DNA of 64,000 nucleotides from Candidatus Woesearchaeota archaeon (GCA_016185755.1 JACPMX010000015.1:1-64000), one strand, 5' to 3'; positions 21,595 through 45,047 are shown, numbered from the stretch's first letter. Notes: generated by a model from the sequence alone, not told the origin. Numbers and translations: made by a program.

Positions 21595-21679
21595 CAAAAG
21601 TTTTCTTTGATATATCCTATTTAAATGTTGTTGATGTAATTTCAAACATTGGCTTTTTGCACACTGCACTCTTAATATA

Positions 21680-21849
21680 AATACTTTATTTATGCTTTTT
21701 TTAGTATATTTTAAATACTTTTGATGTACTAAATTATTATATTAATACTTTATTTATACTTAATTTAGCATAAAAATCTAAATCTATAATAATAAACTTT
21801 AAATATTAATACTTAAATTAGGCTATATAATGTATATATTAAGGTAAAA
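21680..21849 (+). promoter_or_regulatory. AT-rich operator/promoter region with repeats
   Basis: Two near-identical 27-29 bp units starting AATACTTTATTTAT lie at about 21680-21708 and 21745-21773, with a partial third at 21809-21827. Inverted CTAAATTA (21729-21736) / TAATTTAG (21761-21768) and AGTAT/ATACT arms overlap them. GGCTATATAATG (21821-21832) is a TATA candidate for the ATG at 21850. The ribbon-helix-helix protein encoded immediately downstream is the obvious candidate ligand; binding is inferred. Confidence 0.5.
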
Positions 21850-22023
21850 ATGAGTATCCAAATACGAATTACTGTATCTAAGGAAATAAACAATCTGCTT
21901 GAAAGAGTTTCTAAGAAGCTTGGCAAGAAAAAATCAATGCTTGCCAGGGAGCTGATGGAGCAGAAGATGTACGATTTGGAATTGATACAGAAAGAGCTGA
22001 AGGAAATGGAAAAGGAAAAATGA
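21850..22023 (+). CDS. ribbon-helix-helix DNA-binding protein
   Basis: A 57-residue protein starting MSIQIRITVSKEINNLLERV, with a strand (IQIRITV) followed by two helices, the Arc/MetJ/CopG-type ribbon-helix-helix fold, and a Lys/Glu-rich C-terminal helix. Such proteins are dimeric repressors or antitoxins. Its stop overlaps the next start (ATGA), making it the first gene of the surface operon and its likely regulator, and no toxin is adjacent. Repeats upstream could be its operator. Confidence 0.75.
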   Translation: MSIQIRITVSKEINNLLERVSKKLGKKKSMLARELMEQKMYDLELIQKELKEMEKEK

Positions 22024-24155
22024 ATTTTCAAAAAAAATCCCAGACATCGATATTCATGATAATGGGGCTTATAATCATAATAGGCGGAGTCATATTCTTC
22101 TACTCCACGCAAAAAATCAAGGAGCCGTTCGAGCCGGAAATAAATATCGTGCAGGAGGAGATTCCGCTTGAATTCTCTCCGATAAGGGAATACGCAAATT
22201 CGTGCATTTATTCTGTGGGTGTTGATGGCCTGAAAATAATGGGCGAGCAGGGCGGCTACATCAGCTTTTCGGACAGGAGCCTTAACAGGGAGCAGTTCAC
22301 AATAACACAGAACCCGACTGAAAGCGATGCCGTTATTTTTGCAAAAGAGTCTGAACTGAAAATTCCTTACTGGTGGTACCTTAAGTCGGCAAACAGCTGC
22401 AGGGGAGACTGCAGGTTTGCATCCAAAAGGCCCGAATTAAGGCAGGCAGACAATTCAATCGAGAAGCAGCTCGAGCGCTACATCGACCTGAAGCTGAAAG
22501 AATGCATCAATAATTTCGAGCCTTTTGCCGCGCAGGGAATCAAGGTAAGCGAGTCGGGAAAAATAAAAACGGACGTGACAATAGGCCCGGATGAAGTTAT
22601 TGTAATTGTTGATTACCCTTTAAACGCGGAAAGCGGGGATGCAAAATCGAAGCTCAGCCAGTTTGTCGTCAGGCTTCCTGTCAATCTCGACAGGGTGTAC
22701 GAGCTTGCAACAAAGATAACCAACATGGAAATGAAGCACCGCTATCTTGAGAAGCATGCGCTTAACCTTGTTGTTGCATTCTCGGGAGTAAGCGGGGAAA
22801 AGCTGCCCCCGATGTCGGACATGCAGTTCAAGTTCGGAAGCTCGACGAGCTGGAAAAAAACGGATGTAAAAAACAAGATAACATCATTGCTGATTTCCTA
22901 CGTTCCATTGTTCCAGGTGGACGGCACTTACAATTACGAGAGAAACACGTTCAACTCGGAGCTGAAGCAGAGGCTTTATGACTCTACAATAATTCCCGTG
23001 GCCAACAGCTCCTTCAGGGACTTGTCGGCTTATTTCACCTATCTTGACTTCTGGCCTGCTTATTTTGACTTGAACTGCAAAGGGGAAAAATGCATGCCGA
23101 GCTCGGCAAACAGCCTTATTTCGATGTTCGGAATACAACAGTACAGGTTTGCCTATGACTTGTCATTCCCTGTTCTTGTGGAAATCCAGGATCCGTTTGC
23201 ACTGAACGGCAAGGGCTACACATTCAGTTTCTTCCTTGAAGGGAATGTCAGGAACAACAAGCCCATGCCTGCTGATTTTGCGCCTTTGGAAATGGCGTCG
23301 CTTTCCGAAAGCTCGCTTCTTTGCGATGCAAGGACAAGCGGCAACATAACCGTGAATGTTGCAAATGCCGCAACGAGAAAGCCGGTTGATGACGCGCAGG
23401 TGCTTTACACAGTTGCCGGCGAGAGCTGCTTTATCGGCTCAACAAATGCAGAGGGCATGCTGATTGAGCAGTTTCCTACAGGCGTAGGTGGCTTTTTGAC
23501 TTTTGTAAGGGACGGCTACGTGGGAAAATCGGCCGAGTTTGACGCAAGGCCAAAGACAAGCGATGCGGTAAAAGTGGAGCTGCAGCCAATCCACGCAAAA
23601 AAGCTCATTGTCAAAAAGAAAAATGTGGCCAAGACAGCAAGCGGGTGGCAGTTTGTTGATTCGCCTGTTGATTTGACCAGCAGGGAAAGCGCCACTGTTA
23701 CTTTGACTAGATACGGGGAAAATGAGCTGGACCTGCCGGCAATTGCAAATTATGAAGGAAGCCAAAAAGAGCCGAGCGAGATAGAAATAGCGGCGGGAAA
23801 TTACGCTGCTGAAATAAACCTGGTGCTTGATGAAAGGATAATAATTCCGGAGAAGCAGAAATGCGTGAAGAAGGATATCTTCGGCGCAAAAGAATGCTTC
23901 ACAATACCAAAAATTGACTTTGGCGAGAAGTCCACGCCCGGCCAGGAAACTTTTCCCGAAGGCGGCCTTAAGCTGAATTTCACGATAAATGCCGATGAGC
24001 TGGAAAGCCACGAGGCAATAGTGCTCTACGCAGTCAGCATAGACCTTGCCAGCGTTCCGGAGCAAAACAGGATTGTAGAGGACGTAGAGCAGATTGGCAA
24101 GATAGAGGAGTACTCAAAAACATACCAATTGGCCTTGCAGCCAAAATTCCAATGA
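22020..24155 (+). CDS. pilin-like N-anchored surface protein A (module 1)
   Basis: A 711-residue protein with a short basic start (MNFQKKSQTSIF), one TM segment (about 10-30) and a large extracellular part. The KSQ before the hydrophobic helix resembles an archaeal type IV pilin-like (class III) signal, but the usual Glu at +5 is absent, so processing is uncertain. Landmarks are YANSCIYSVGVDG (about 60), IPYWWYLKSANSC, KECINNFEPF, RFAYDLSFPVLVEIQDPF and a carboxypeptidase-regulatory-like beta domain (about 440-510). It is clearly paralogous to 35542-37467, which shares IPYWW, CINNF-PF and the RFAYDLSFPV/HFTYDISYPV region. Function unknown; probably a structural or assembly component with the neighbouring giant proteins. 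Confidence 0.75.
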   Translation: MNFQKKSQTSIFMIMGLIIIIGGVIFFYSTQKIKEPFEPEINIVQEEIPLEFSPIREYANSCIYSVGVDGLKIMGEQGGYISFSDRSLNREQFTITQNPTESDAVIFAKESELKIPYWWYLKSANSCRGDCRFASKRPELRQADNSIEKQLERYIDLKLKECINNFEPFAAQGIKVSESGKIKTDVTIGPDEVIVIVDYPLNAESGDAKSKLSQFVVRLPVNLDRVYELATKITNMEMKHRYLEKHALNLVVAFSGVSGEKLPPMSDMQFKFGSSTSWKKTDVKNKITSLLISYVPLFQVDGTYNYERNTFNSELKQRLYDSTIIPVANSSFRDLSAYFTYLDFWPAYFDLNCKGEKCMPSSANSLISMFGIQQYRFAYDLSFPVLVEIQDPFALNGKGYTFSFFLEGNVRNNKPMPADFAPLEMASLSESSLLCDARTSGNITVNVANAATRKPVDDAQVLYTVAGESCFIGSTNAEGMLIEQFPTGVGGFLTFVRDGYVGKSAEFDARPKTSDAVKVELQPIHAKKLIVKKKNVAKTASGWQFVDSPVDLTSRESATVTLTRYGENELDLPAIANYEGSQKEPSEIEIAAGNYAAEINLVLDERIIIPEKQKCVKKDIFGAKECFTIPKIDFGEKSTPGQETFPEGGLKLNFTINADELESHEAIVLYAVSIDLASVPEQNRIVEDVEQIGKIEEYSKTYQLALQPKFQ

Positions 24156-24301
24156 ACATCATAAAAATAACAGTAGTGGCTAAAAGGGAATTTTCAGAGC
24201 ATTATGAGGTAAGGGAGTACAGGAAGCATGCTTCCGAGCAGCTTGTCGTAAGGAAATACGCAATGGGCATCGGCAAGCTTGTTGTTGACGAAGAAAGATA
24301 A
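24152..24301 (+). CDS. 49-aa basic small protein
   Basis: A 49-residue basic protein (MNIIKITVVAKREFSEHYEV... to GIGKLVVDEER) between proteins A and B of module 1. The ATG overlaps the previous stop (ATGA), and the next ATG is 1 nt past its stop, so translation is coupled. The pattern suggests a beta strand, a helix and another strand, possibly a DNA-binding or subunit-interface protein. No family recognised. Confidence 0.65.
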   Translation: MNIIKITVVAKREFSEHYEVREYRKHASEQLVVRKYAMGIGKLVVDEER

Positions 24302-24302
24302 A

Positions 24303-27300
24303 ATGAACAAGGAAAAATATTTGGGAGTTGTCGCATCGTTTTTGATAGTCCTTGTGCTTACAATTCCATTCTACACAACAGTAGTTTACGCAGCAATAAG
24401 CAGCGTAAGCATCAGGGGAGGCGACGGAATAGAAGGCTTTGCAAAGGCAAATGATTTCCTGAACGTGAATGTGCAGGCGTCGATAGCCGGGGATTCAATA
24501 ACAAATAACCAGGTTGTTCTCGGCTCATCCACTCAGTTTGACAAGTGTGTTCCTTCTGCAAACAACGGCTCTGAATGCACCCTGAGGTTTCCGGGCAACG
24601 GCACAGAATCTTTTGATCCAAAATCAGCTGCCTTCACAGTAAATTTGTTCAAGGATGACAGCTCTCTTGACGATTCGAAATCAGGCAGCATAACAATAGA
24701 CAACAAAGCTCCCCAGGTCAAGCTTAGCTCCCAGCCAAAATTCTCGTCGCAGCAGAATGTTGTTATTGAATATGATGTCACGGATCTCTCATGCGATGAC
24801 CCAAGCTGCAGCGGCAAATGTGTAGGGTTAAAAAATATAGAATTATACACAAAAGACGGCGCATTCAAGCAGGCCATTGACCCTGCAACGAGCAGCTGCA
24901 ATGCAAAATCAAGCATAAGCATAGACTCCAAGATATTCAATGACGGGAAAAATTCAGTTTTCGCAAAAGCGACTGACAAGTTCAATCAGGTATCATCGGA
25001 AACATCTGCAACATTTGATGTTGACAGCACAGGCCCCTCAATTATTGCAGGCTCATTCGAGATTTTAAGGAAGGGGATCAGCATCAGCACATTTTCTTCA
25101 GCGGGGATTAATGTTGATGTTGCGGTTAACATATCGGGAAATAGCCTGGATTTGAATTCTGTAAGGGCAGATTTGTCCGAATTGAATCCGTCACAAAACC
25201 TCAAAAATGTTAAAGCCTCGTGCTCTATTGATAGCGTTAGCAGGTGCAAGTGGAGCATTGAATTAAACCCCGGCACAGGCGGCCTCAAAACCATAGCAAT
25301 AAATGCTTCTGACGTATCTGGAAACAAGGAAAGCGCAGCAATAACAAAATTCCTTTCCATTGATGAAACAGGGCCCGTTGTTTTGTCTTTGTCCACAGGC
25401 ACGGAACAAAACGTTGCAAAGGCAAGCGGGAATACTGTAATTGCTGAATTTGAAGAAGCAACGGGCTTAGTGCCCGAGGATGTATTTTTAAATGTTGGCA
25501 GCAGCAAAATAAAGGCAACTAGCTGCGGCAAAGAGGCTAACTGGTTCTGCATTTGGAACAATGTTAATTTTGCCGGCGCTGCCAGTGTGTCGGTGGATCA
25601 CGAATCCCTGGACATTCTTGGCATTGATGCAGCAGGCGACATATCCCTTGATGTAATAGTAGATGCGCAGCTTCCTGTGCTTAAAAGCATCAACATAACC
25701 AATGTAGGCGGCTTGGCGCAGGCATTTCCCGGATTCGCGAAAATAGGGGATAAAATCTCTGTCGTTGCAAACATGACAGAAGAAAATGACCTTTCAGCCA
25801 CAGCTGACTTTTCAAAATTCATAAGCGGGGCTTCAAATGTAGCAGGCCAATGCGAGAGGATACAGGCTGATGAGCACATATGCACCTGGCTCACTGAATC
25901 CATCAACCTTCAGGCTTCCGATGTCATAACCTTCAATTTCAGCGACGATGCCGGAAACACGCTGATTCTCACAAGGTCTTTCAAGACTTTTGGAGTTGAG
26001 AATGCGACAGTGCCTGACTTCTGGAGCAACACAGTTGACTGCTCTCCAGCAACAATAGACAGGGAGCTTGGGCCGCTGTTAAACCAGCGGGTATTCTGCC
26101 AGGTAAGCCTGAGGCAAAAATCAGGCACAAAGGCAGTTTCAACAATATTTATCGGGCCTGCCGCCTGCTCCGGTGATTCCTCAATTATACAAAGCGTTGA
26201 TACTTTGAAGACAGAAGTCGGAAGCTCTTCGCCTGTAATAAAAGTAACGCTGAAAAAGGATGACTTCAAAATAAACAATGCAAGCCTATCCTGCTCATTT
26301 AATATATTCTCGAAAATAGGCAGCTCGACAACCGTAACAAAAAACCCTGAAATCGAGAATGTAAAGATAAGCCTTGCATTTTCCAATTTGCCTCTTGGAG
26401 AATTAAGCGAGGAAGTTAAGGGCAAAATAAAAGAAGCTAAAGAAGACGCGGAAGGAATCTGGGAAATCATAGGAGTTATGAACAAGATTGTGTTCTATGC
26501 GAAGAAGATATGCAGCTTGTTTGGTACTTTGTACAACATCATCTCAATTCTGTTTTCTGTTGCCCTTTTGCTCGGTTATTCAAAAGAAGCTTGTGAAAAT
26601 TTACCATATATTGGATGGATTTGCAGGGGCGCGCTCCAGCCAACCGCGACTGCGACTTGTGTAACTGAGAGCAGTGTAAGGGACACCACGCAGGAAGGCC
26701 TCATCGGATATGGCCAAAAATTCTGCAGGTTTGTGAATTGCCAGTGGAATCCTGAATTTATTGAGAAATATTGGTCAGGGCCTGTAAAGAACACACTGAA
26801 TAATCTCCCGCTCACCAAGTACATTAGTAAAGATATTACACAATATATGGATCCAAAATCCAATTTGATTGTTGCAACAGCATTCGCATGCCTTCCCGGA
26901 ATTATATACGGCTTGGATAAATACAGGCAAATCAAATGCCTGTATGCAGATTGCCTGCAAAATGCTGTTGGAAAGGAAGGGTTGCCGGTGACTGCATGCG
27001 AGGATCAAAAAACATATGCAACCTGCAAATATATCACGGGGGAGATATTTGCAATAATTCCTTATACTGCATTCATTGATCATTTCATGGGATTGGTAAA
27101 AAATGCTTTATCAAATCCGTTCTCTGCCCTTGGAGCCGGAATATCGGCCTTGTGCTGGTCGTTCTGTAAATTTGAGCTTCCGGGCGCAACAGCTCTTTAC
27201 CAAGGATGCGAATTCGTAAAGCTATTCTCAACAATGGGCGTAGTGTTAGGGGAAATTAAAGGAATTATAGATCAAGGCTTCCAGATAAGGGAGGATTACT

Positions 27301-27386
27301 GCTCAAGGCTGGATGATGAGGAAGACGATAAAAAAGATGATAAAAAAGATGAAGAGCTTACAAAAACAAGCGGGGCAAAGACATGA
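24303..27386 (+). CDS. large secreted Ig-like, cysteine-rich protein B (module 1)
   Basis: A 1027-residue protein with a signal peptide (MNKEKYLGVVASFLIVLVL, cleavage near VVYAA), then a series of Ig-like beta domains (about 35-640) with the VDSTGP/IDETGP/IDNKAP linkers typical of big archaeal surface proteins. From about residue 660 comes a helical region with hydrophobic segments (about 735-765 and others) and conserved Cys pairs (FCRFVNCQW, CKYITGEIF, CWSFCKF), ending in an acidic/basic tail EEDDKKDDKKDEE. Both the start and the Cys-helical C-region resemble the 2203-residue protein at 37586. ATG 24303 is preferred to a TTG at 24279. Role unknown; an adhesin or surface-layer-like scaffold is likely. 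Confidence 0.75.
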   Translation: MNKEKYLGVVASFLIVLVLTIPFYTTVVYAAISSVSIRGGDGIEGFAKANDFLNVNVQASIAGDSITNNQVVLGSSTQFDKCVPSANNGSECTLRFPGNGTESFDPKSAAFTVNLFKDDSSLDDSKSGSITIDNKAPQVKLSSQPKFSSQQNVVIEYDVTDLSCDDPSCSGKCVGLKNIELYTKDGAFKQAIDPATSSCNAKSSISIDSKIFNDGKNSVFAKATDKFNQVSSETSATFDVDSTGPSIIAGSFEILRKGISISTFSSAGINVDVAVNISGNSLDLNSVRADLSELNPSQNLKNVKASCSIDSVSRCKWSIELNPGTGGLKTIAINASDVSGNKESAAITKFLSIDETGPVVLSLSTGTEQNVAKASGNTVIAEFEEATGLVPEDVFLNVGSSKIKATSCGKEANWFCIWNNVNFAGAASVSVDHESLDILGIDAAGDISLDVIVDAQLPVLKSINITNVGGLAQAFPGFAKIGDKISVVANMTEENDLSATADFSKFISGASNVAGQCERIQADEHICTWLTESINLQASDVITFNFSDDAGNTLILTRSFKTFGVENATVPDFWSNTVDCSPATIDRELGPLLNQRVFCQVSLRQKSGTKAVSTIFIGPAACSGDSSIIQSVDTLKTEVGSSSPVIKVTLKKDDFKINNASLSCSFNIFSKIGSSTTVTKNPEIENVKISLAFSNLPLGELSEEVKGKIKEAKEDAEGIWEIIGVMNKIVFYAKKICSLFGTLYNIISILFSVALLLGYSKEACENLPYIGWICRGALQPTATATCVTESSVRDTTQEGLIGYGQKFCRFVNCQWNPEFIEKYWSGPVKNTLNNLPLTKYISKDITQYMDPKSNLIVATAFACLPGIIYGLDKYRQIKCLYADCLQNAVGKEGLPVTACEDQKTYATCKYITGEIFAIIPYTAFIDHFMGLVKNALSNPFSALGAGISALCWSFCKFELPGATALYQGCEFVKLFSTMGVVLGEIKGIIDQGFQIREDYCSRLDDEEDDKKDDKKDEELTKTSGAKT

Positions 27387-27727
27387 ATAAATCAGGCGAG
27401 AAATTCGGAATTGGATTGTTCATTGTATTGGCCGCTATGTCAGTTTCGCTGATTTCTTTCATGACAGAAGAGAGCAAAATAACTGGATTTGTCAGTTACG
27501 AAGCCAATAATCTTGATTTATTGGAGTTTGACGATATGAAATCGCTTGGGTACATGGCTTCCGGAAATTATTACATTGACGGTGAAGGAATTGTCTACTG
27601 GACTGATGATGAGGACAAGCCTGCAGTGGCTATGGTGAAATCAGTAAGCGAGAGCGAGAAAAGCAGGCACATCTACATTGATGATGAAGGAAGAATCGGC
27701 TATGTTTTGGATGTGAACGAAAAATGA
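27383..27727 (+). CDS. small N-anchored surface protein
   Basis: A 114-residue protein with one TM segment (about 9-27) followed by ITGFVSYE, the ITG-type sequence often seen just outside the membrane anchor in DPANN surface proteins. Its C-terminal 75 residues (LGYMASGNYYIDGEGIVYWT..., IYIDDEGRIGYV) resemble residues about 60-115 of the 2227-residue protein that follows, suggesting a common domain made by duplication. It overlaps both neighbours by 4 nt (ATGA). Confidence 0.65.
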   Translation: MNKSGEKFGIGLFIVLAAMSVSLISFMTEESKITGFVSYEANNLDLLEFDDMKSLGYMASGNYYIDGEGIVYWTDDEDKPAVAMVKSVSESEKSRHIYIDDEGRIGYVLDVNEK

Positions 27728-30700
27728 AGAAATTAATTAAGAATAAAATAGCAAAAGGAATTGTCAGCCTGATTACAATAGTCATTTTGCTTTCATCCAT
27801 ACTTGCATCATCAATATTCTATGAGAATAACATAACTGCAAATGTTGTAAAAGAGGCTTCAGGAGCAGAAACAGCTAGGATTACCATAATAGAAGTAAAT
27901 GATATCAGGGAATTAAATCAGCTTAATGAAGGCTGGTACCGGATAGTTAATGGATACGTGTTCTATCTCGAGCATTTTGACTCTTATGTCCCGCTTTACA
28001 TACATGTAAGGAATATTGAACAGCAGAACGCTTTGCTCGGCATTGATGAAGACGGCACTATATTTTTTGACAATACTTTTGGCAATTCAGATGAGTTTGT
28101 TGAAGAGCAGGTCATTGAGCAGGCTGAAGATGAAATTGCTGAAAATCAGATTACTGGAGAGGTTACTGGATTGGAGGAAAATCAAAATAATATTATAAAA
28201 TCTTCTTCAGACCCTGTAACTGGTTTTATACCTGCGTATAATCCGACTACAACAAGAAAAGTTAGTGTTTCTTACAAGCCGGTTCCACAGCAATATGAAA
28301 AATTTGTCAAAGATGCAGCAAAAGAATACAAAATTAATGAGAATCTCTTGAAATCATTAATAAATGTAGAAAGCGGATATAACTCAAAGGCAAAAAGCCC
28401 TGTAGGGGCAGTTGGGCTTGGCCAGCTGATGCCAGCAACAGCAAAAGGACTTGGACTATATGTTGACCCGGTGCTAGTCAAAGAAACATCTAAGCTTACA
28501 CCAGCAGAGAAGTCCAGAAAAACACAGCTAGAGCTAAATCCTAGTGTAAGTGATGATGAAAGGCTTGACCCGCAAAAAAATATTTTTGCTTCTGCAAGAT
28601 ACTTAAGTGATTTGTATAAGAAATATAATGGAGATGAAGTGCTGATAATCGCCGCTTATAATGCAGGGGAAGGCAAAGTGACTAGATTTGGAAATATTCC
28701 GCCTTATGACGAGACAAGAAAGCACGTTACCGCAGTGTTGCTGGGCAAGGAAATGTTTGATAATGGACTTTATGTTGAGGAGACAATAACCGCAACGTAT
28801 GAACAGCCTATTAGCCTTGGTGTAAAAGATTTTTCATCCGGACAGCTGCCGATTTATAACACAAAAATTTTTGCCCAGACAAAAACCGGGCAAAAACTCA
28901 TTGCCCAGGCAGCTGAGCCAGAGCATGCGCCAAGCATATGGGCAAGGGCAGGGGAGTTTTTTGGCGGCATAGTTGATGCAGGAAAAAGAGTAGTTGGCAT
29001 AAAGCCTGTGCCTCCTCCAGCCCCTCCAAAGCCGGCAGAGCTTTATCAGGATGGCGACAGGGTAGTTCAATTTATAGATGGAATTGGCACAGTTATACTG
29101 ACAAGAAAAAATGGTGCATGGGCACTTGGGCCAATCAGGTATAACGATGAAGAGATGCAAACATTGCTTAAGGATGGAACTTATTCTTATTATGAGACTT
29201 CTGATATGTCCAGGCTGGAATTTAAAGAGACTGAATTCGGATATGATTTCTATGTTGACAAAGAGACACAAAGAGGATATGTTCTAGTTGAGGGGGAAAG
29301 AGGTTATCAAAGATTTTATTTAGTTACTACAGATTCAGAAACTGGAAAAAAATCCTATTCTGTGGATGGAGGCAAGTACATGCTTACAATATCTCCTCCT
29401 GTTAGGGCGCCTTTAGAGCTTCCTCCAAGGCCAGAACCTGAGCAGAAAGAACCTGAAGAGATATCTGAAGAAGGGCCACAAGTTCCTTCAAATTTTGAAA
29501 ATGGTGACAAAATAGTGACCAAAGAAGGAGTTACTTATACAAGAGAAACTACCAATGCTGGAGAAATAATCTGGGTCCCGGATAAAGGATGTGCTTTAGT
29601 TGCCGGAAAGGACTGCACGGCAATTCCGGAGTTTAGCATAAACACCATACTTGGCAAAGGCTCTGTCTTTATACCAGTTGAAACTCCGAAAGAAGCGCTT
29701 CCGGATTTTATTATAAGAAGCGGGGGAGGGCTATACAGGATAGATCTAGGAGCAGGGGATGTAGCTGATGCTTCTAACACTCCAGAGGGTAATTTTGAAT
29801 ACAAGGGATTGGACGGCAGCGAATATTTATACAATCCACGCGAGGATAAATTCTTTATAAAAAGAGATGGAAAATATATAGACATCAATTATAAACCAGA
29901 ACAGCCACCTGTCCCGCCAAAAATAAATGTAAAATTTACAGGCAGCGGATTTGAAATTTTGGAGGAGGATGGGAAACTGTCTTATGTGACTTCTGACGGA
30001 TTTTATTATAAAGCATGGGAAAATACTAATGACGGCACTTACTCTGTTGATGTAGGCGGCTCTGAATACAGAATTGATAAGGATGGGCAACCTAAACTAG
30101 TCGCTAAGCCGGCAGAAGCACCTTTGCCTCAAGAAGGAATACCCTCAGCAGGGAGGCTGCTTATAGATGAAAAACCCCAGCAAACTGCTGTGCAAAAAGA
30201 GTTTAGATGGTATAATCCATTCACATGGTTCGGCGGAGAAGAAATTTCTCAGCCAGCTGAAACAGAACAGAGTCAAACCCAGCAGATTCCAATCGATCTT
30301 GATGCAAGAAGAAAATGGTTTAGCAATGAAATCCAAAGCTTGGAAAGGCAGTATGAGGAAAAAAGAAGTTTAGGGGCAGAAAGTGATCAAACAAGAGATT
30401 TGGAAATTAGGATTGGCACCTTAAAGAACACAGCGCCTCCGAGTGAAGAATATAAGAAGCTTGCAGAAGCATCGGGAGTTAATCTTCAGGAATTGGCTCA
30501 AAGATTCGGGCCTAAAAGTATTAACGAGCTTGCAGTCCAGGACATTAGTGATGAATTATTGTATAACAGGTTGGGTTCCCAATTTCAACGCGGCGGCACA
30601 ACATATGAATTAAGGATTAATGACAAAACCAAAGAGCTTCAAGTTTACGCAAAAGGCGCAGGAGAGCCCGTAATTGACTCTGCACTTCCGACTTTGCTGC

Positions 30701-35164: not shown

Positions 35165-35263
35165 CCGAAAGTTTTATAAATATCATCTATGATTTATATA
35201 TAAATCTATGCTTTTTAAATATATAAAGATATTATTTATATATAAAATAAATATATTACATAT
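35165..35263 (+). promoter_or_regulatory. promoter region of module 2
   Basis: A very AT-rich stretch with several overlapping TATA-like sequences (TTTATAAAT, TTTATATATAAAT, TTTATATATAAAA). The last lies about 27 nt before the ATG at 35264, giving a leaderless start for the AbrB-like gene. Confidence 0.45.
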
Positions 35264-35419
35264 ATGAAATATACGAAAAAACTGATAAGGACAAGCGGCG
35301 GCCTTGTTGTCAGGGTACCATCGGATATAGTAAAAGTCCTTAATCTTACAGAGAAGGATTATGTCGAGATAGACCTCAGCAAAATTGATGTCAGGGCGCT
35401 GAATAAAAAGATGAAATAA
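35264..35419 (+). CDS. AbrB/SpoVT-like DNA-binding protein
   Basis: A 51-residue protein (MKYTKKLIRTSGGLVVRVPS...) with the swapped-hairpin AbrB pattern: basic strand, SGGLVVRVPSDIVKVLNL, then KDYVEIDL. Such dimers are transition-state regulators or MazE-type antitoxins; no toxin gene is next to it. It stands at the head of module 2, just as the ribbon-helix-helix gene heads module 1, so it is the likely regulator of this copy. Confidence 0.75.
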   Translation: MKYTKKLIRTSGGLVVRVPSDIVKVLNLTEKDYVEIDLSKIDVRALNKKMK

Positions 35420-35541
35420 AATTAATTGAAAATGCATGAACAAAGTTAAAATTAGAAAAAATCCAACGATTAACATTAACGAAAAACTCAATAAAAAATC
35501 AAATCAAACATAAAAAATAATTAAAAACATTCAAAAATAAA
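35420..35541 (+). other. A-rich leader of module 2 protein A
   Basis: A strand-asymmetric A-rich tract poor in G, with AAATCAA-like repeats; a similar tract precedes the B gene (37480-37585). It contains a 25-codon Lys/Asn-rich frame (35436-35513) that I do not consider a convincing gene. No Shine-Dalgarno sequence or hairpin is visible. Confidence 0.4.
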
Positions 35542-37467
35542 ATGCATAAAAAAAGAGGTGTAAGGAGCATTCTAATCAGGAGCTCGAAATCACAGGCGGC
35601 AATATTCATAATAATCTCGCTTATTATCATACTCAGCGGCGTGCTCTATTTCTTTTACCAGAGGCAGTCTGTTGACAAAGAGATTGAGATAATACAGCCT
35701 GAAGCTGCCACGGTCAAGCTTTATGTCGAGAACTGAATCAGGACAGCTGCCGAGGACGGGCTGGAAAGAATCGGCCTCAGCGGCGGCTATGTGAACGTCC
35801 CGGACAGCATTGCAAGCGACCGAAGCGCGTATCTTGCAGAGTTTCCGGCAGGCTTCAGAATCCCATACTGGTGGCATGATGGTGTGGAATCAATTCCGTC
35901 AGAGGAATTCATAAACCAGCAGCTTGCATCGCACATTAAGTCAGAGCTGGGCGCCTGCATAAACAATTTCGGGCCTTTTGCCGAAAAATTCCAGATAAGC
36001 GAGCTTAAGGAAGCGGTTGTCAGCGTGCAGTTCAACGAGAACGATGTGTATGTCAATCTTAAGTATCCTCTGGAGATAGCAAGCCATGACGGGACTTTAA
36101 AGCAGCTCATCCAGAATTTTGATTACACTATCCCGATAAGGTTCAGGAAAGTATATGAGCTTGCAAAGCTGGTCATGGAAAGGGAAAACAAGGAATATTT
36201 TCTTGAAAAAAAGACAATAGACCTGTACTCCATAGACAGGGATATACCGACAACTGATGTCGAAGCAACATGCAGCTCAAGAACATGGCAGCTTTCTAGC
36301 ATAAGGGACAAGCTCAAGACGCTGCTCCGCGTCAATTTGCCATACATAAGGGTAAAGGGCACGGACTACAACCCGAACCTTTACGTTCCAAACCCAAGCG
36401 GCAAAAGCATTTATTCCCAGACATATTTCCAGCAGCATTATGTCTGGGAGATAGACAAGGACGAAAAGAAATATAAGAACATGAAAGTTTCTTTTTCATA
36501 CAGCGACTGGCCGCTTGAGCTGTATGCAAGGCCCAGCCAAAACGGCATTTTAAGGTCTAACTCCCAAAAGGGAACCGACATGCTTTCATTCTTCTGCCTG
36601 CATATCTGGCATTTTACATATGATATCAGCTATCCTGTAATGGCCACAGTATTTGACCAGGAAACTGACAGGAACAAAGCATACCGATTCAGCTTTGCAT
36701 TCAAGGTAAGCATTGACCACAACCAGCCCAGCAGGGCAAGCACAGGCACAGCTTTGTTTGAGACAGAGGCTGACCTGTCCTCAGATGAATACTGCAATGA
36801 TGCGCAGAATGAAGTAACCATTTTTACTGTTGACAACGCAACAGGCGATGGCATAAGGGATGTAAACCTTACATTTGTCTGCGGCAGGTTTTACTGCGAT
36901 GCCGGTGCAAGCAACTGGCTCGGGCTTGGGGGCAGCGCAGGCATCACAAAAAGATTCCCAAGCTGCGTCAACGGAATTATAAAAGGATCCAAGCAAGGCT
37001 ATTCTGAATCAAAGTCATTTGTCCAGACGGATGTCGACGGCCGCTCGTACGTGCTTTCACTGAGCCCGATAAAGGAATTCGGCAATTACAGGGTTGTGAA
37101 GCACATGCTGTCAAGCCCCGGAAGCTCGCAGGAGCTCCTGCCAAATGAAAAGGCTTCGATACTGATAAAAGGAAAAGACAATGGCTATGAAGGATTTGCA
37201 GCTTATCCAAGGGAAGAGGCATTCCCTCTTAGGATACCTGATGGCAAGGACGCAGCTTATGAAGTGAGAATATACCTGGTTGATGATGAGAATATAATCG
37301 GAGGGTATATTGGAGACTGGAAAGTAAGCAGAGGCTCATTGAGAGGGGCTGATGAAATTGTTTTCCATGTCCTTGAGCAGGGGCCTGCATCGGATGACGA
37401 GAGATTTTTGTTCATATCGGGCTTAAGCTCGTACTCCAAAAGCATTCCGGCTCCTGAATTGAGGTGA
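35542..37467 (+). pseudogene. pilin-like surface protein A (module 2) with one in-frame TGA
   Basis: A 641-residue reading frame interrupted only by a TGA at 35734-35736 (codon 65). The N-terminus (SKSQAAIFIIISLIIILSG) is the pilin-like anchor, and reading continues in the same frame for 577 more codons with full similarity to 22020-24155: DGLERIGLSGGY, IPYWWHDG, ACINNFGPF, HFTYDISYPV. The TGA aligns with the Cys of YANSCIY in the paralogue, so a TGC or TGT to TGA change, a sequencing error, or recoding would explain it. TGA is a normal stop elsewhere here (for example 22021 and 24153), which argues against a genome-wide reassignment. A GTG at 35791 could restart translation but would lose the anchor. 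Confidence 0.7.
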
Positions 37468-37585
37468 CAATAAAAAAGTTCAGTAACGAAAAGCCCATTG
37501 GCGGAATCTCAATTAAAAAACAACCCAATAACTAAAAATCAATAAAAAGCAATCAATAAAAAAATAAAAAAATCAAATTCAAAAA

Positions 37586-40500
37586 ATGAGGAAGAAATCA
37601 ATTGATATGATTGCTGTGTTCATTTTGCAGCTGGTGATCTCGCTGCCGCTCTACACTGCAAGCGTCTACGGGCTTGAGATATCGAATGTAAGGGTTGCAA
37701 AAGTGTCTTCAAATTCAGCCACGATAGAATGGAGCACTGACAACATGTCAAATGGAAGGGTAAGGTACGGAAAGACAACTGCCCTCGGCTTTACCGAAAG
37801 GCACGACAATTTTATAGGAAACCACACTGTTGCAGTTTTCAACGGGATAGACAGCGACACGAATTATTTCTTTGCAGTCGAGTCAACAGATTTGGCAGGA
37901 AACAGTGCAGTGGACAACAACTCAAACAGCTTTTATGCATTCAGGACAGCTGATATAACCCCCCCTTCCCAAGTCATGGGCTTGGCGCTTGTTTCGGCAG
38001 CATCAAATTCCATAGCCATCTCATGGACCGGCCTGAATATAAACGATTTAAGCCGCTATATAGTCTACAGGAACAGGATTCCAGTTGCAAATTCGACATC
38101 AAGCAGCTTTAATGACACCGGCTTGAGCCCAGGCACGGAGTTCAACTACAAGGTTTCAGCTGCCGACAGCAGCGGCAATGAAGGCCCGCAGTCAGACACT
38201 TTGATAGCATCCACTTTGGGCGTTGACTCAACAGCTCCTGTGATAAGCGGCATAGACATTATTGCAGTAACCGACACTACTGCCAGGGTTACATGGCTTA
38301 CAAGCGAGAACTCAACTTCCACAGTGCTTTACGGCATAAACAATACTGACAGGATTAAAAGCTCTTCTGATTTTGAGTCAAACCACACCGTAGTCATAGA
38401 CGGCCTTGTAAAAAATGCAAATCATGTATTTGCCGTAAAGTCATGCGACCCCTCAAATAATTGCGCAAACTCTTCTATGCAGAATTTCACAGCGGGAAAA
38501 GATACAAAAGCGCCTTTCATAAACCTGAACCTGTCGAGGTTTGTAAACCGGAGAGTTATAGACATTGTCGGCACCACAGAGCCGTTTTCCTCGGTCACTC
38601 TTTTCGTCAATAACATGAACTCCCCTAAAAGAAGCCTTGGCAATAATGAAGTTGGGGCGTCAGGAAAATTTGCATTCAGCCAGATACAGCTTGAGCAGGA
38701 AAATGTGATAAAAATTGTCATGGTTGACAAGTCGGGAAACAAAAACCAGAAAATCTTTGAAGTCGGAATAGACACAGAAGATCCGATAGTCCAGCTGAAG
38801 GAAATTCCGCAGCTTACTTCAAGCTCTCAGCTGCTGGTAAGCGGCTCTGTAAACGAGCCTGTTACAATAAAGGTCTTCGCCGAGACAAATGTCAACGAGT
38901 CATCAAACCCTCCAAAAATAACAGGATTGAATGCGACAAAAATCGGCCAGAACTCTGCTGAGATTCGATGGGACGAGATTAAGGACAAGGACTTCAGCCA
39001 TTATGTAGTTTACCGCGAGGATGCAAGCCCGATTGCAATAACAAAGCCCTCTAATTTCAACCTTTACATTGATGCGCTTGTTGACAGCGGGAAAAGCTAC
39101 ACCTACCAGGTTTCTGCCGTAAATATATTCGGCAGGGAAGGCCCTAAATCCGACCCATTGGCTGTGCAAATTCCAAAAGGCGGCGCAATTTTGAATTTAA
39201 AGCCCGCAGAAGTTGACATTTTTGAAGACTTCAGGAAGCCCTTGCTGTTGGCAAATTCAACCGGCAGCTTCAATTTTACAGTTAAATTAAGCAGGGGAGA
39301 CGGTAATTATAAGATAAAGATTATTTTTGAGGACAGGGCGGAAAACAGCGTGATAATAGATAAAAGCGTGACCTTGGATACAAAAAAGCCGGAAATAAAA
39401 ATATTAAGCCCTCCGAGCGGGGCATTGGTATTTGAGAATGTAGCAAACGAGATAGACATAACCGGCCAGACCAAGCCCAATGCGCGCGTTCATCTGTTTA
39501 TTGACAGGACTCCTTTCAGCTTCTACAATGATACATTTGAAGTAAGCGGGCTTCCAAATGAAGTCCAGGATATTGATGAGACAAAGCTTGACGCAAAATG
39601 CCGCTCATCCCTCGGCTCTACATCTTTTTGCAGGACAGGAGCTGATTTTTCTGTCGATGCAGATGCAAACGGCAATTTCAAGTTTGAAAGGGTGGATTTG
39701 ACAGCCGGAATTTTCCCCCCTGGCAGCAGTGCCCTTAGAATAAGTGAAGTTCCTGTGTCTGACTTCAGGGATTTCCAGCTCAATCCTGAAGGCCAGCAGT
39801 CAAAAAAGGCTACGCTTGTCTTAATTGCAACAGACAAAACCGGCAAAAGAGGCGTTGCCACTCAAACAATAAGGATTGGCACCTGCTGGAGCGGCAACCA
39901 AAGCTGGGATATAATTCCGCTAACCCAGCACCAAAGCCCGCCTTCCGGCCTAAGCACGGAAAGGCTTGCGGAAGGCACGGAAACGCTTTACTTTTTCTTT
40001 AATTATTCCTATATCGGGAGAGGCACATCGCCCATAATAAATGGAATAACAATAAGCAAGGCCTGCGGCACAAGAGAGGTTCTTGACCCAAGATTCAACA
40101 TAAGCTGCCAGGTGATGCCAAGCGGCGTGCCGACACAGCTGATAAAGAAAAGCATCAACCCGGCAGAAAACAGAGTTTCCTATTCAGCTGCGCAGCTCAG
40201 CAGATTCCCAGGAATGGAAAGATTTTTGGAGGATGACTGGAAAAGCTTCTTCAAGTCGCTCAACAAGGAGATGACATTCCCTCTTTTGGTCAGGATAAAT
40301 TACAAGCATGACACAAACAATGACGGAACTCTTGAATCAGAAACACAGACAATCTGCGAGCAGGTAAGCTACACGGTTGACAACACGATCATTGACCCGC
40401 GCAAGGTGCTGCCTGACTGGCTGCTTTTTGATTTTGTGGATTTCCTGCAGGAATCGATAAAAACCCTTACCGATGCGCAGGAGAAGCTGAATAAATTGAT

Positions 40501-43500
40501 TGATTATGTCACAATCGGGTGCTTCACTTCCGGAGGAGCTTATTTCGGGCTGCAGGTTTACAGGAGATGGACTTCATTCTGGGAAGAGAAGGCATATGCC
40601 GGCATCAAGACAGTCGAAAAATTATCCGAGATGTTTGGCATGGGAAAGCTCAAGCTCAATCCTGAGAAGAAGGAAAATGAAGATGAGTGCCAGGCTGTGA
40701 TAAACAGCATAGTGAAGGCAAAAAAAGAATTCAAGCTCAAGTATGTTAATGACATTGACCTGAAAAAATGCTTCCCTGCTACATCTTCTGCATGGGATTT
40801 GGAGGCAAAAACCTGGGAGCTTATGAGGTACAGCTGCGACAGGATTTTTGGCCACTCATCACCTTCAAAATGGACGGAATCAAGGAATGATGATGAATTA
40901 ACGAGAAAGATAGAGAGCATTGAGGGATGCGAAGGCGATGGAAGCATCACAGGTCAGCCGCTGGATGCCATGAACTGCGCGGAATTCGCGAGAAGATATC
41001 CAAGATACAGCAATGCTGCCCAGCTTGGCGCTGACAAGAAGTGCATCTTGTTAAAAGCAAAAACAGCTTCTGGCAGGGTTGGGGACTTTGTTTTTACTGT
41101 CGGTGACTTAATTTCGGATTCTGAGCAGCTCTACAGGCTGGACCATATCCAGCGGCTGGGAGAATTTTCCAGTGAAACCTTTTATGCAGTGAAAAGCCAG
41201 GTAAGCGAGTTTAAGTATATAACTGCCAAGTCAAAAAGCTGCGAGGAAGAATGCCAAATGAGCAATAAGGGAAAAGTGTCGACTCTTGACCATAAAACAA
41301 AAACTATAAAATTGGTAGAGGGTACAAACGGACAAGGCTCTGCTGCAACTTGCATGACAACCCAGGACTGCACATCCCTGAATGCAAAAGATCCAAATAA
41401 TCCATTCAAGCTTCAGGGAAAAGAAGTCAAATACGCACGCAGCGCGGGCTTTACAAGCGACTGCTTTTACAACCCGGACAAGGCAGAGCTTAACAACCCA
41501 ATTGTTGTCAGCAATAATCCTGCCCAAAGCGTGGGATGCTGCTGCATAAGCACACAGGATGAAAAAGGCCAGCCGACAAATTATTACCAGCCCGGTGATG
41601 TCGACCCAAGCGACCCGGCCAAAAAAGTGCACGAGTCCAGAACAAAGCCCGGAGAACCGCCGCAGCCCCAGCCAAATGATGAAAAAGGCTTCACAGACAT
41701 GAAGTGGAGCTACAGGTATTCCAAAGAAAGGTTCCAGGCAATTTCAAATGAAAAGATACGCAGCCAATACCATCCGCACAGGTATATAGAAGACAGGGAT
41801 TTCCCGGCATGCTTTGGCATGGACCACCTTTTCTACAGTGCATTGGGCGAGAAGGAAAAAGCTTTGATGCTAGATCCTGCCAAAGACTATGTTGTGGCAA
41901 CGTTCCAGTGTGCGCACCTTGTAGGAATAAGCCAGAGGCTGCAGTTCATAAAGAATTTGATGGCTTCATTGTCAACTTGCCTGATACAGGTCAGGACAAC
42001 CGGCAGGGGAGATGCCGGGGCATGCAAGGAGCTTTTCACACAATACCTGTGCAATTCATTATGGCAGGTCATCAACTTCGTTACATCAAAAGGATGCGCT
42101 GCAGCAGAGTCTGCAAGCGATCCTAATTACCAGTTGGATGACATGATAGAGCGGGTTAAAGCCGGGGCCAAATCCGTCTCTGATGCTGCAACCGATGTCC
42201 AAAGCACAATCTCGCAGGAATACGGCAATGCAAAGCTTAACGAATTGCTTGGCAGCGGGGAAGAAAGCATTGCAAGGAAAGTTTGCTTGGCTGCATTCGG
42301 CTATGACTGGGAGCTGAATGTAAGGAATCTGATTGATGCTGCATACACTCAGCCATTTGCAACCCTTGTCCAGCCGATAACCCGCTCAAGGGAATTTTTG
42401 ACAATAAACCCTGTTGACCTGAAGCCGAAATACGAGTACAGGGCATCTTGGCTCATTAATCCGGGCTGCGAATTTGAAAGATACGATGTGGAGCTTGCAT
42501 GCGTAGGAAGAAAACAGCTTGACTTATACCCCAACCAGATTAATTGCGGCGCAATTGGAGCGCCTTCGGTCGCATCTGCATTTTCAATAGGGAGCACTCC
42601 TGGAATAAACCAATGCGACTGCATTGGATTGCCTGACGAGAAGCGCAGGTCAGTATTTGTTGGTACGAGGCTGAGGCAGAATGTGTTGGAGGACAAGCCG
42701 GCATTCCACCAGGTCATTGATGATAATTACAGGTACGACCATCTTAAGTTTACCTTGAGGCCCGACAGGAAAATACCTGCCAATATAAAGCCAAACTGCT
42801 TCCCTACAGGCTACGATGACGGGGTCTTTTACGTTCCATTGATAGACAAGACTGCAAAGGATGTTTTTGACTGCAGGATAGACCCGTTGTCAGGCTCTGT
42901 AACACCATGTTGCAGCACTGACCAAACCACAGGCTCAATTTCATGCGGCTCGGGAGATGCATTTGCCTCAAAAAAAGGCACAGCGGAATTTATAGACATA
43001 AGCGTTAACGGCAACAACGCCTTGGGAGGCCGGGAGGATCTGACATTTTTTGCAGGGGAAACATTGAAAGTCGACACTACTGTAAGAAGCGTAGGCCAAA
43101 ACAAATGCCTCAGGCTGACAATTGACGGCCAGCAGCAGGTTGATGAGGTGTTTGAAGGAATACAGCAGTACACACTGCAGGTGCAGCCGACATTCGGCAG
43201 GACTGAAATATCGGAGCCTGCAGGAATCAAGGTCCAGAAAATAAATCTCCTGAATCAAAAAGATGTTTTCATCAACCTGGGATTCTGGGACGCTGACAAT
43301 AACCTGTTCTTTTTTGACGATGAAGACCAGATATATATAGGCAATAAAAACGAGAACAGGAAAAAAATAAGTGAAATAAAAAATTCGCCAAGCGGAAAAA
43401 TGACATTCAAGGACGGCCCTGCTGATGTGGAAGTTTCTGTTGTGAACCAGCAGATTGTAATAAGCAAGGAGAATGCCGAAATTGTTATTGTGTCGGTAGA

Positions 43501-44197
43501 GGCGCAAAGAAACACAAACACAGGAGAGACAATTAAAGACCCTCCAAATAGCGGATTGACGTTTGTCCAGGGCACGATAAGGATATCGCAGCCGACAGAT
43601 GCAACTGCAGCGATACAGCCGCAGGCTTCCCAGTCGAAAAATTTGGTGATCGGGCTGTACCATACAAGCGATGATCCGAATGTCTTTGGGATAAGCTCAT
43701 GCAATTTCAACGACCCGGTCATTACATCGACAGGGGCAAGGCAGGAAAGGCCCATAAGGGTAAACATAGACCAAAAAATATCTGCATCTCCGTTGCAGGG
43801 GCCGATAGTAAGCGGGCCTGCCACAAGGGCAATGCTTCCGTTCAAGAAGGAGAACATAATCATAGCTGCAACAATAACCCACAGCGACGGCGTGGAAACA
43901 CCCGAGCTTGACTGCAAGAGCCCTGACGCCCAGGCTTTCAAGGTTCCCGGCAATTTCAGGGGCAGCGCCAGCTACGAGTTCTATGTAAATCCAAGCGAAA
44001 TAAATTTTGCCGGAGGGTATTCCTGCACGCTTAATGCAAGAAGCGCAAACAAGCAGGCAAGGGTCAACTCAATCCCTGTAAAGTTCGAGGTGCAGTGCGG
44101 CGGCGATAACAATGTATACGGCACATGCGACAAGGATGCAAAATGCAAATCAGGCAGCATTGAAATAACGGGATTAAACTGCTTTGCGAAATCCTAG
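37586..44197 (+). CDS. giant secreted FN3 and cysteine-rich protein B (module 2)
   Basis: A 2203-residue protein. The signal peptide (MRKKSIDMIAVFILQLVISL, cleavage near ASVYG) resembles that of protein B in module 1. At least four fibronectin type III domains follow (about 30-125, 130-215, 220-308, 440-530), plus Ig-like segments with TKAPFINL/TKKPEIKI linkers. From about 790 to 1700 the protein is Cys-rich and partly helical, with a hydrophobic patch (about 970-990), CQAVINSIVKAKK, NCAEFARRYPR and CCCIST. The last 500 residues are again beta-rich. No catalytic motif found. Probably a cell-surface adhesin or structural fibre. Confidence 0.75.
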   Translation: MRKKSIDMIAVFILQLVISLPLYTASVYGLEISNVRVAKVSSNSATIEWSTDNMSNGRVRYGKTTALGFTERHDNFIGNHTVAVFNGIDSDTNYFFAVESTDLAGNSAVDNNSNSFYAFRTADITPPSQVMGLALVSAASNSIAISWTGLNINDLSRYIVYRNRIPVANSTSSSFNDTGLSPGTEFNYKVSAADSSGNEGPQSDTLIASTLGVDSTAPVISGIDIIAVTDTTARVTWLTSENSTSTVLYGINNTDRIKSSSDFESNHTVVIDGLVKNANHVFAVKSCDPSNNCANSSMQNFTAGKDTKAPFINLNLSRFVNRRVIDIVGTTEPFSSVTLFVNNMNSPKRSLGNNEVGASGKFAFSQIQLEQENVIKIVMVDKSGNKNQKIFEVGIDTEDPIVQLKEIPQLTSSSQLLVSGSVNEPVTIKVFAETNVNESSNPPKITGLNATKIGQNSAEIRWDEIKDKDFSHYVVYREDASPIAITKPSNFNLYIDALVDSGKSYTYQVSAVNIFGREGPKSDPLAVQIPKGGAILNLKPAEVDIFEDFRKPLLLANSTGSFNFTVKLSRGDGNYKIKIIFEDRAENSVIIDKSVTLDTKKPEIKILSPPSGALVFENVANEIDITGQTKPNARVHLFIDRTPFSFYNDTFEVSGLPNEVQDIDETKLDAKCRSSLGSTSFCRTGADFSVDADANGNFKFERVDLTAGIFPPGSSALRISEVPVSDFRDFQLNPEGQQSKKATLVLIATDKTGKRGVATQTIRIGTCWSGNQSWDIIPLTQHQSPPSGLSTERLAEGTETLYFFFNYSYIGRGTSPIINGITISKACGTREVLDPRFNISCQVMPSGVPTQLIKKSINPAENRVSYSAAQLSRFPGMERFLEDDWKSFFKSLNKEMTFPLLVRINYKHDTNNDGTLESETQTICEQVSYTVDNTIIDPRKVLPDWLLFDFVDFLQESIKTLTDAQEKLNKLIDYVTIGCFTSGGAYFGLQVYRRWTSFWEEKAYAGIKTVEKLSEMFGMGKLKLNPEKKENEDECQAVINSIVKAKKEFKLKYVNDIDLKKCFPATSSAWDLEAKTWELMRYSCDRIFGHSSPSKWTESRNDDELTRKIESIEGCEGDGSITGQPLDAMNCAEFARRYPRYSNAAQLGADKKCILLKAKTASGRVGDFVFTVGDLISDSEQLYRLDHIQRLGEFSSETFYAVKSQVSEFKYITAKSKSCEEECQMSNKGKVSTLDHKTKTIKLVEGTNGQGSAATCMTTQDCTSLNAKDPNNPFKLQGKEVKYARSAGFTSDCFYNPDKAELNNPIVVSNNPAQSVGCCCISTQDEKGQPTNYYQPGDVDPSDPAKKVHESRTKPGEPPQPQPNDEKGFTDMKWSYRYSKERFQAISNEKIRSQYHPHRYIEDRDFPACFGMDHLFYSALGEKEKALMLDPAKDYVVATFQCAHLVGISQRLQFIKNLMASLSTCLIQVRTTGRGDAGACKELFTQYLCNSLWQVINFVTSKGCAAAESASDPNYQLDDMIERVKAGAKSVSDAATDVQSTISQEYGNAKLNELLGSGEESIARKVCLAAFGYDWELNVRNLIDAAYTQPFATLVQPITRSREFLTINPVDLKPKYEYRASWLINPGCEFERYDVELACVGRKQLDLYPNQINCGAIGAPSVASAFSIGSTPGINQCDCIGLPDEKRRSVFVGTRLRQNVLEDKPAFHQVIDDNYRYDHLKFTLRPDRKIPANIKPNCFPTGYDDGVFYVPLIDKTAKDVFDCRIDPLSGSVTPCCSTDQTTGSISCGSGDAFASKKGTAEFIDISVNGNNALGGREDLTFFAGETLKVDTTVRSVGQNKCLRLTIDGQQQVDEVFEGIQQYTLQVQPTFGRTEISEPAGIKVQKINLLNQKDVFINLGFWDADNNLFFFDDEDQIYIGNKNENRKKISEIKNSPSGKMTFKDGPADVEVSVVNQQIVISKENAEIVIVSVEAQRNTNTGETIKDPPNSGLTFVQGTIRISQPTDATAAIQPQASQSKNLVIGLYHTSDDPNVFGISSCNFNDPVITSTGARQERPIRVNIDQKISASPLQGPIVSGPATRAMLPFKKENIIIAATITHSDGVETPELDCKSPDAQAFKVPGNFRGSASYEFYVNPSEINFAGGYSCTLNARSANKQARVNSIPVKFEVQCGGDNNVYGTCDKDAKCKSGSIEITGLNCFAKS

Positions 44198-44207
44198 AAT
44201 CCTTAAA

Positions 44208-45047
44208 ATGCAAAAAAATATTATTTTTACCTCAATTAAAGAATCACTTTCATCAATCTGGAGAAATAAATTCATGTTTTTTTTGCTTTTTTCTTTGCAA
44301 ATCTTGTTTTTAGTTTTATTCCTTGTCATAAATTACACTTACCAGGCAAGAATGCTAGAGAGCGCAATGGCCATAACAGAATATTTAAACCGGCAGAATC
44401 TTGATGATGCTTCAGTCACCTCAAGCATGCTTCAGGAAAAGGAAATTCTTGGCGATGACCCATTGATGATAAGCAGGAACTTCAATGAAATAGTAGGGAA
44501 TTTCAGGGTTTATCTGGCTCTTATTTTTATTTTATTTGCTGCATTTGCCTCTTTTGCATGGTCTATGACCCACAGGATAACCAACAATAGCAGCCTGAGA
44601 AAAACACTAAAAATTTTTTTCAAGATTTTTGTTGTGTCATTCATTTACCTTGGCTTGATTTTCGCTTTTTTATTTTCCATCATAAACTTTTCATTCACTG
44701 AAATTGCAGCAGAAGGCCAGAAGCTGCTTATGAAGTATATTATTTTCCTGGCTGTTTCAATTGCCCTTCTCTACTTCATGTTTATCTCGCTTTCATTGAT
44801 AGGCAGCACTCGGCTGGGCAATATAGTGCAGAAAACCCTGAGCATAGGCATCAGGAAAGCCCATTACGTCTTTGCATCATATCTTATTGGGATGCTGATG
44901 CTTGCAGCTTCGGCTGTCCTCCTGTATTATTTCATGGAAAAAAACATGCTTTTGCTGCTGCTTTCCCTGGCCTTAATGGTTTTTGCATTTGTATTCCAGA
45001 GAATATTCATGGTCAATATGATTAGAAAATTAGAGTTAGAGTCCTGA
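44208..45047 (+). CDS. six-TM membrane protein C (module 2)
   Basis: A 279-residue membrane protein with about six hydrophobic segments: near residues 25-47, 95-115, 135-160, 172-195, 210-235 and 238-260. The loop QKTLSIGIRKAHYVFASYLI matches FKAFRLGISKLHLFILPYI in the module 1 protein. ATG 44208 is preferred over a TTG at 44184 that overlaps the end of the giant gene. No transport motif recognised. Confidence 0.7.
   Translation: MQKNIIFTSIKESLSSIWRNKFMFFLLFSLQILFLVLFLVINYTYQARMLESAMAITEYLNRQNLDDASVTSSMLQEKEILGDDPLMISRNFNEIVGNFRVYLALIFILFAAFASFAWSMTHRITNNSSLRKTLKIFFKIFVVSFIYLGLIFAFLFSIINFSFTEIAAEGQKLLMKYIIFLAVSIALLYFMFISLSLIGSTRLGNIVQKTLSIGIRKAHYVFASYLIGMLMLAASAVLLYYFMEKNMLLLLLSLALMVFAFVFQRIFMVNMIRKLELES

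Follow-up and report, generated by a model that had tools for sequence, protein, structure and literature searches.

The 64,000-nucleotide stretch of Candidatus Woesearchaeota DNA analysed here (the window; GCA_016185755.1, JACPMX010000015.1:1-64000) carries between positions 21,850 and 45,047 a doubled cluster of genes for large surface proteins. With moderate confidence, we read this locus as encoding an extracellular contact (adhesion) apparatus anchored in the membrane; it is widespread in Woesearchaeales, and other orders of the class have a relative with a single module. The cluster comprises two modules on the + strand, in the order R1-A1-B1-S-D-C1 and R2-A2-B2-C2. The pairs A1/A2, B1/B2 and C1/C2 are homologous by sequence or profile comparison, and one protein of module 1, D, carries a domain predicted to cleave murein. 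The window is part of a 1.25-Mb genome in 16 contigs, whose nearest relatives are named Candidatus Woesearchaeota.

An earlier note, made from the sequence alone, had described two tandem modules of a small regulator, A, B and C, with coupled starts. The positions and the common strand were as described, but the order proposed for module 1 lacked S and D. Overlaps of 4-14 nt were found at R1/A1, B1/S, S/D, D/C1 and B2/C2, whereas intergenic gaps separate A1 from B1 (123 nt), C1 from R2 (99 nt), R2 from A2 (122 nt) and A2 from B2 (118 nt), so that the starts are coupled only in part. The note had missed S, the SLT-containing protein D, the interruption of A2 and the age of the doubling.

Protein A

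A1 (22020..24155, +) encodes 711 aa and A2 (35542..37467, +) spans 641 codons. The two are homologous, with a BLASTP E-value of 6e-33 and 26% identity over 412 columns. A1 starts with a class-III-like (prepilin-type) signal, has a single transmembrane (TM) helix and ends in domains resembling CnaB and transthyretin (TTR). The same type of signal, [KR][GSA] followed by Q, with a hydrophobic helix directly after it, was present in 85 of 92 A proteins. In these 85, position -2 was K or R in 84, position -1 was G, S or A in all, and Q stood at +1. Position +5 was Phe in 81, Tyr in three and Ile in one, and thus the Glu5 of type IV pilins was absent. All ten genomes checked for pilus motor genes had T2SSE-family ATPases and a prepilin peptidase, but on other contigs or far from the locus; no secretion ATPase or prepilin peptidase gene was linked to the A locus in these ten, the platform protein not being part of the search. 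The label "pilin-like", given to A in the earlier note, therefore fits the signal, but neither position +5 nor the gene neighborhood.

Scans against Pfam and NCBIfam returned nothing for A, and a sequence-profile search of the PDB gave no useful relative. The structure model (mean pLDDT 68) begins with a helix, continues with an alpha/beta region that has no clear relative, and ends in beta domains matching CnaB and transthyretin-like domains (for example 8bdw, target TM 0.65; 5aq0, target TM 0.79). Such domains also occur in Gram-positive sortase-type pilins and CnaB adhesins, for example BcpA, SpaA and the B. anthracis TIE protein. The likeness is limited to single-domain folds, and signal and anchor differ from those of A. 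No LPXTG-type system was seen in the locus, although none was sought.

A2 is interrupted by an in-frame TGA at 35734-35736. In the alignment this codon falls on a Cys that A1 and the intact A2 proteins have in common. In G001, a member of the same genus, A2 (L050, L049) keeps the Cys and has a TAG nine codons further, while the other A2 starts compared are open. Two different stops, TGA in the window and TAG in G001, hence fall within one short stretch of A2. Selenocysteine or another form of recoding is a less likely cause of the TGA, because the other aligned A2 proteins carry Cys and G001 has its TAG nine codons on. The simplest reading is that the stops are independent nonsense mutations or errors in the metagenome-assembled genomes. 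Since A2 is interrupted, module 2 is probably impaired in this genome and may be non-functional, unless the stop is an assembly error.

Proteins B and C

B1 (24279..27386, +; 1027-1035 aa, ATG 24303 being the likelier start) has a signal helix, a row of immunoglobulin (Ig)-like domains and a Cys-rich helical C-terminal domain. B2 (37586..44197, +; 2203 aa, 48 Cys) has a signal peptide, FN3/Ig domains (Pfam fn3, E 2.2e-17) and a Cys-rich helical domain at residues ~1412-1522. Pairwise BLAST of B1 and B2 aligned the signal peptide only (E 0.001), and a comparison by hhalign, with 11 + 11 sequences, fell short of significance (E 0.15). The relationship was recognized with a profile of the Cys-rich helical domain built from 18 B2 proteins only. 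All its top matches outside B2 were B1 proteins and short B-like open reading frames (ORFs), with E-values of 3.2e-4 for B1 of the window, 1.4e-7 for the best B1 and 1.6 for the first non-B ORF. An iterative B search had B1 sequences in its training set and was not used as evidence here. By the profile matches B1 and B2 are homologous, including their Cys-helical regions, as the note had proposed.

No Pfam or NCBIfam family other than Ig/FN3-type domains was found in B, and the B1 profile had no useful relative in the PDB. In the B1 model (mean pLDDT 65), a signal helix and the Ig-like row are followed by a long helix and a poorly modelled Cys-rich helical end. The S-layer proteins Sap, SbsB and SlaB were among the Foldseek matches, but these were generic.

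Upstream of the double module, G022, G023 and G030, from two genera of the family, have a third A gene with a short B-like gene of about 320-375 aa (L063:5110-8274, L065:4478-7789, L067:6277-9506). The short gene holds little beyond the Cys-helical domain. Because such genes match the profile of this domain, the sequences suggest that it is the core of B.

C1 (34397..35164, +) encodes a polytopic membrane protein of 255 aa, and C2 (44184..45047, +) a protein of 279-287 aa with six predicted TM helices. Pairwise BLAST was too weak to relate them (E 0.016). When alignments of C1 only and C2 only were compared by hhalign, the two proved homologous (probability 97.6%, E 2.9e-12, 227 columns), in agreement with the earlier note. 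C had no characterized match in the Pfam and NCBIfam scans.

Protein D and its lytic transglycosylase domain

The 7 kb between B1 and C1 are filled by S (27383..27727, +; 114 aa) and D (27724..34407, +; 2227 aa). S has one TM helix, as predicted by a Kyte-Doolittle (KD) scan, and resembles the N-terminal part of D, whose profile it matches. D has an N-terminal TM/signal helix, an SLT domain (residues ~195-322, DNA about 28306-28692, +; Pfam SLT, E 2.6e-25), a variable middle and a conserved C-terminal region. In alignments with solved lytic transglycosylases, ESGY of D falls over ESAF and AAYNAG over AAYNAG. The fold, the catalytic Glu in E-S-x-[YF] and the later A-Y-N-A-G motif are all present, and D carries an intact lytic transglycosylase domain that is predicted to cleave murein.

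Within the genus D ranges from 794 to 3,407 aa. Its N-terminal ~150 aa and C-terminal ~200 aa are conserved, and the middle varies in length and content. An SLT domain lies within D in at least four species of the genus: this genome, G013, G018 and G009. In G013 D is 3,407 aa long and also has PG_binding_1 over its cut-off; in G009 the SLT domain is at a contig end and D is in two frames. Four further genus members (G001, G004, G010 and G016) have separate SLT genes upstream of the locus. In three of them, A-like genes of ~255 aa lie directly beside the SLT gene, on the reverse strand (G010, G001 and G016; L104:4116-6468, L115:1509-3624, L116:2921-5238).

A general association of SLT with A and B was ruled out. 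Among 20 SLT loci elsewhere in the relatives, A and B were both missing from the surrounding 5 kb in 19, and the remaining one was D of G018. Another recurring SLT context, seen in L199, L212, L213 and L218, was a protein of ~1,080-1,180 aa (where complete) beside several genes of ~340-400 aa; L218 belongs to the genome of the window itself.

Giant murein transglycosylases of Pacearchaeota and Woesearchaeota were described earlier as fam00969, part of "module 98" (Castelle et al. 2021, PMC8204110). Going by that published description, D resembles them in lineage, in a size of up to 3,000 aa, in the SLT domain and in the proposed extracellular role. In the portion of the paper that deals with it, fam00969 is presented as a protein family without gene context, whereas the SLT domain of D is an optional module in a conserved A-B-S-D-C operon.

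Conservation and age of the doubling

A profile of A1 and A2 had matches in 55 of 59 relatives. With a wider A profile, 237 of 279 genomes of the phylum were matched at E<=1e-10; for the full system this number is an upper bound, because the A family has shorter paralogues that share the N-terminal part only. Several diverged copies of the family occur in each genome. B lay directly downstream of A in all loci read, 26 from the order and 20 more, all selected for strong A matches; for G248, B was confirmed by the iterative B search only.

Within the same genus and family the order was R1-A1-B1-(S)-D-C1-R2-A2-B2-C2, with occasional extra small genes. In several other families of the order it was A1-B1-D-C1-A2-B2-(C2), and some of the sampled stretches had one module only. 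The order was permuted in a few families (G044, G045, G037). Genomes from other orders of the class (G094, G207, G209, G223, G248, G306) had a single A with a B of 1,214-2,068 aa, followed by C in G094, G209 and G223. The earlier note had named two outcomes that would speak against its proposal, unrelated pairs and an order conserved in no related genome. Neither occurred: the pairs are homologous and the order is widely kept in Woesearchaeales.

A tree of 92 A proteins (quick method, midpoint root) separated two clades with 100% SH-aLRT support. The A1 clade was restricted to the order, while the A2 clade held A2 together with the single A proteins of other orders; each clade contained sequences from many families of the order. 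A recent tandem duplication was ruled out by these two deep clades. Judged from the tree, the doubling is ancient and A1 and A2 are ancient paralogues. Because A2 groups with the single A proteins from other orders, it is more likely module 2 that corresponds to the unit found across the phylum, and module 1 with D would be an elaboration of the order.

Putative regulators, conserved promoter regions and neighboring genes

R1 (21850..22023, +; 57 aa) was read by eye as ribbon-helix-helix-like and R2 (35264..35419, +; 51 aa) as AbrB-like; R1 had no Pfam match. R2 is conserved in the family, and R1 is kept in many family members and in one other family (G048). An alignment of 12 relatives revealed a conserved region upstream of each of the two genes; the two regions differ from each other, and both contain TATA-like boxes and repeated sites. 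The promoter/operator before R1 (21740..21849, +) has a TATA-like box and repeated sites, and the one before R2 (35165..35263, +) is AT-rich, with a purine-rich box and then a TATA-like box. Because R1 and R2 are each preceded by their own conserved promoter/operator, this family probably transcribes its two modules as separate units. The proposal that each module has a regulator of its own thus agrees with the picture within the family, but in most other families sampled neither R1 nor R2 was detected, and the genes there often overlap or lie no more than a few bases apart. The alternative expression of the two modules that the note suggested is thus hypothetical.

The divergent upstream neighbor, UPm (20371..21669, -; 432 aa, start uncertain), has one TM helix and 22 Cys and matched no Pfam family. 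It is kept divergent in the genus and in G022, G023 and G030, whereas in G119 and G121 it adjoins A and has the same orientation. We infer that UPm is a member of the system.

Further upstream, a 115-base tRNA match by Rfam at 19827-19941 (-) was missed by ARAGORN and is probably an intron-containing tRNA gene. Directly upstream of the locus in relatives (L063, L065, L067, L069, L071, L143, L144) there is a protein of ~650-730 aa that matches the cysteinyl-tRNA synthetase (CysRS) profile and is probably another class I aminoacyl-tRNA synthetase. A CysRS-like gene is also found upstream of the locus in the window. Downstream, two convergent genes follow (45048-46280, - and 46346-47005, -). The first encodes a protein of 410 aa without a Pfam family and closes the locus throughout the family.

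A proposed contact apparatus and its alternatives

The earlier note had proposed a surface system of a DPANN archaeon, and this agrees with the woesearchaeotal relatives, the signal and CnaB/TTR-like domains of A, and the Ig-like row of B. The apparatus, as we infer its topology and assembly, its partner and its function, would have a membrane base formed by C together with the helical end of B. A, cut by the prepilin peptidase of the genome, would dock on this base, and B would reach across the envelope. D would be the exposed, variable part facing the partner cell, as its conserved ends around a variable middle are what is expected of such a protein, and it may open or hold the murein of a bacterial partner. 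Since D in this genome carries a lytic transglycosylase, at least one partner, or prey, would be a bacterium. The giant SLT proteins of these lineages have been proposed to act on bacterial walls (PMC8204110, PMC9723730), predatory Woesearchaeota have been proposed (PMC9723730), and archaeal peptidoglycan hydrolases kill bacteria (PMC12352652).

A contact apparatus is favored by the order and homology of A, B and C, by the wide spread of the A family in the phylum, by the prepilin-type signal together with the peptidase, by the adhesin-type domains and by the SLT domain of D, along with the separate SLT genes upstream of the locus in four more genus members. Several observations weigh against it. 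Most D proteins scanned lacked an SLT domain, and a bacterial target would therefore not be general. Confidence in the structure models is low to moderate, and localization, assembly and partner are deduced from sequence and models. Finally, sensitive profile searches of G171, a genome of 668,961 bp in which reverse gyrase is split and which is probably that of Nanobdella aerobiophila, found no homologue of A, the B domain, C or D. G171 belongs to the group with an imaged attachment organelle, and such an organelle can thus exist in the phylum without these genes.

The locus might alternatively encode a general envelope or S-layer, in which A would be the stalk, B the canopy and C the membrane anchor, the SLT domain being an accessory. 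The near-ubiquity of A in the phylum sample (237/279) would suit an S-layer, as would the rows of Ig-like domains, an architecture common among S-layer proteins such as SlaA/SlaB, Sap and SbsB, three of them found by Foldseek, if generically. No sequence relation to these proteins was found, however, and D and the Cys-helical domain of B do not resemble them. A variable protein with predicted murein activity in the same operon would be odd for an S-layer; the prepilin-type signal of A and the several diverged family copies in each genome also weigh against one. We consider this explanation unlikely.

A could also be a type IV pilin-like subunit, its filament built by a type IV motor; B, C and D would then be accessory proteins or sit at the tip. 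All ten genomes checked encode both the peptidase and T2SSE-family ATPases, and in its prepilin-type signal with a hydrophobic helix right behind it, A resembles archaeal type IV pilins and other proteins with a class III signal. Unlike such pilins, it mostly has Phe instead of Glu at +5 (81/85) and, at about 700 aa, a large ectodomain of several domains. Moreover, neither a motor gene nor a platform gene accompanies the locus, although the platform protein was not searched for in the genomes. A pilus is thus distinctly improbable.

That the genes are mere neighbors, with D and SLT as unrelated passengers, would agree with the varying content of D, the permuted order in G044, G045 and G037 and the distance of most other SLT genes from A and B. 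Most sampled families nevertheless retain the order, other orders of the class have it as a single unit, and many of the genes overlap; we regard a chance arrangement as very improbable.

The weakest alternative, and one that is hardly credible, is that the locus encodes the cone-shaped organelle for attachment that has been imaged in Nanobdella aerobiophila and in strain YN1 (PMC11104419, PMC11420986). Like the cluster, which is widespread in the phylum, that organelle is suggested to be ubiquitous there, its proteins are unknown (PMC11420986, PMC11104419), and it is a large envelope-anchored contact structure of the same phylum, but the lack of homologues in G171 largely refutes the identification. 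Because of this lack, the cluster is probably not the known organelle.

A wider and more tentative extension of the contact apparatus is possible, though doubtful. Outside the hyperthermophilic Nanobdella group, A, B and C may form the core of a contact organelle, so far undescribed, that most of the phylum has. In Woesearchaeales it would have been doubled and extended by a variable, partner-facing D, equipped with a murein lyase in some species, so that some would attach to or prey on bacteria.

Significance

No description of the A-B-C-D cluster was found in the literature searched (open-licence papers), and no characterized system matched A, B or C beyond the Ig/FN3 domains of B, in line with the earlier note. 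The broad idea of a surface apparatus is not new, but no characterized system matched this set of families. How DPANN archaea recognize their partners and keep hold of them is a standing question, and for the imaged attachment organelle the protein composition is unknown (PMC11420986). The cluster is a defined set of conserved genes with a very wide distribution in Woesearchaeales, and it offers named genes to localize. Giant murein transglycosylases, earlier noted as isolated proteins, are now tied to a conserved operon, and the question whether some Woesearchaeota live on bacteria becomes directly testable.

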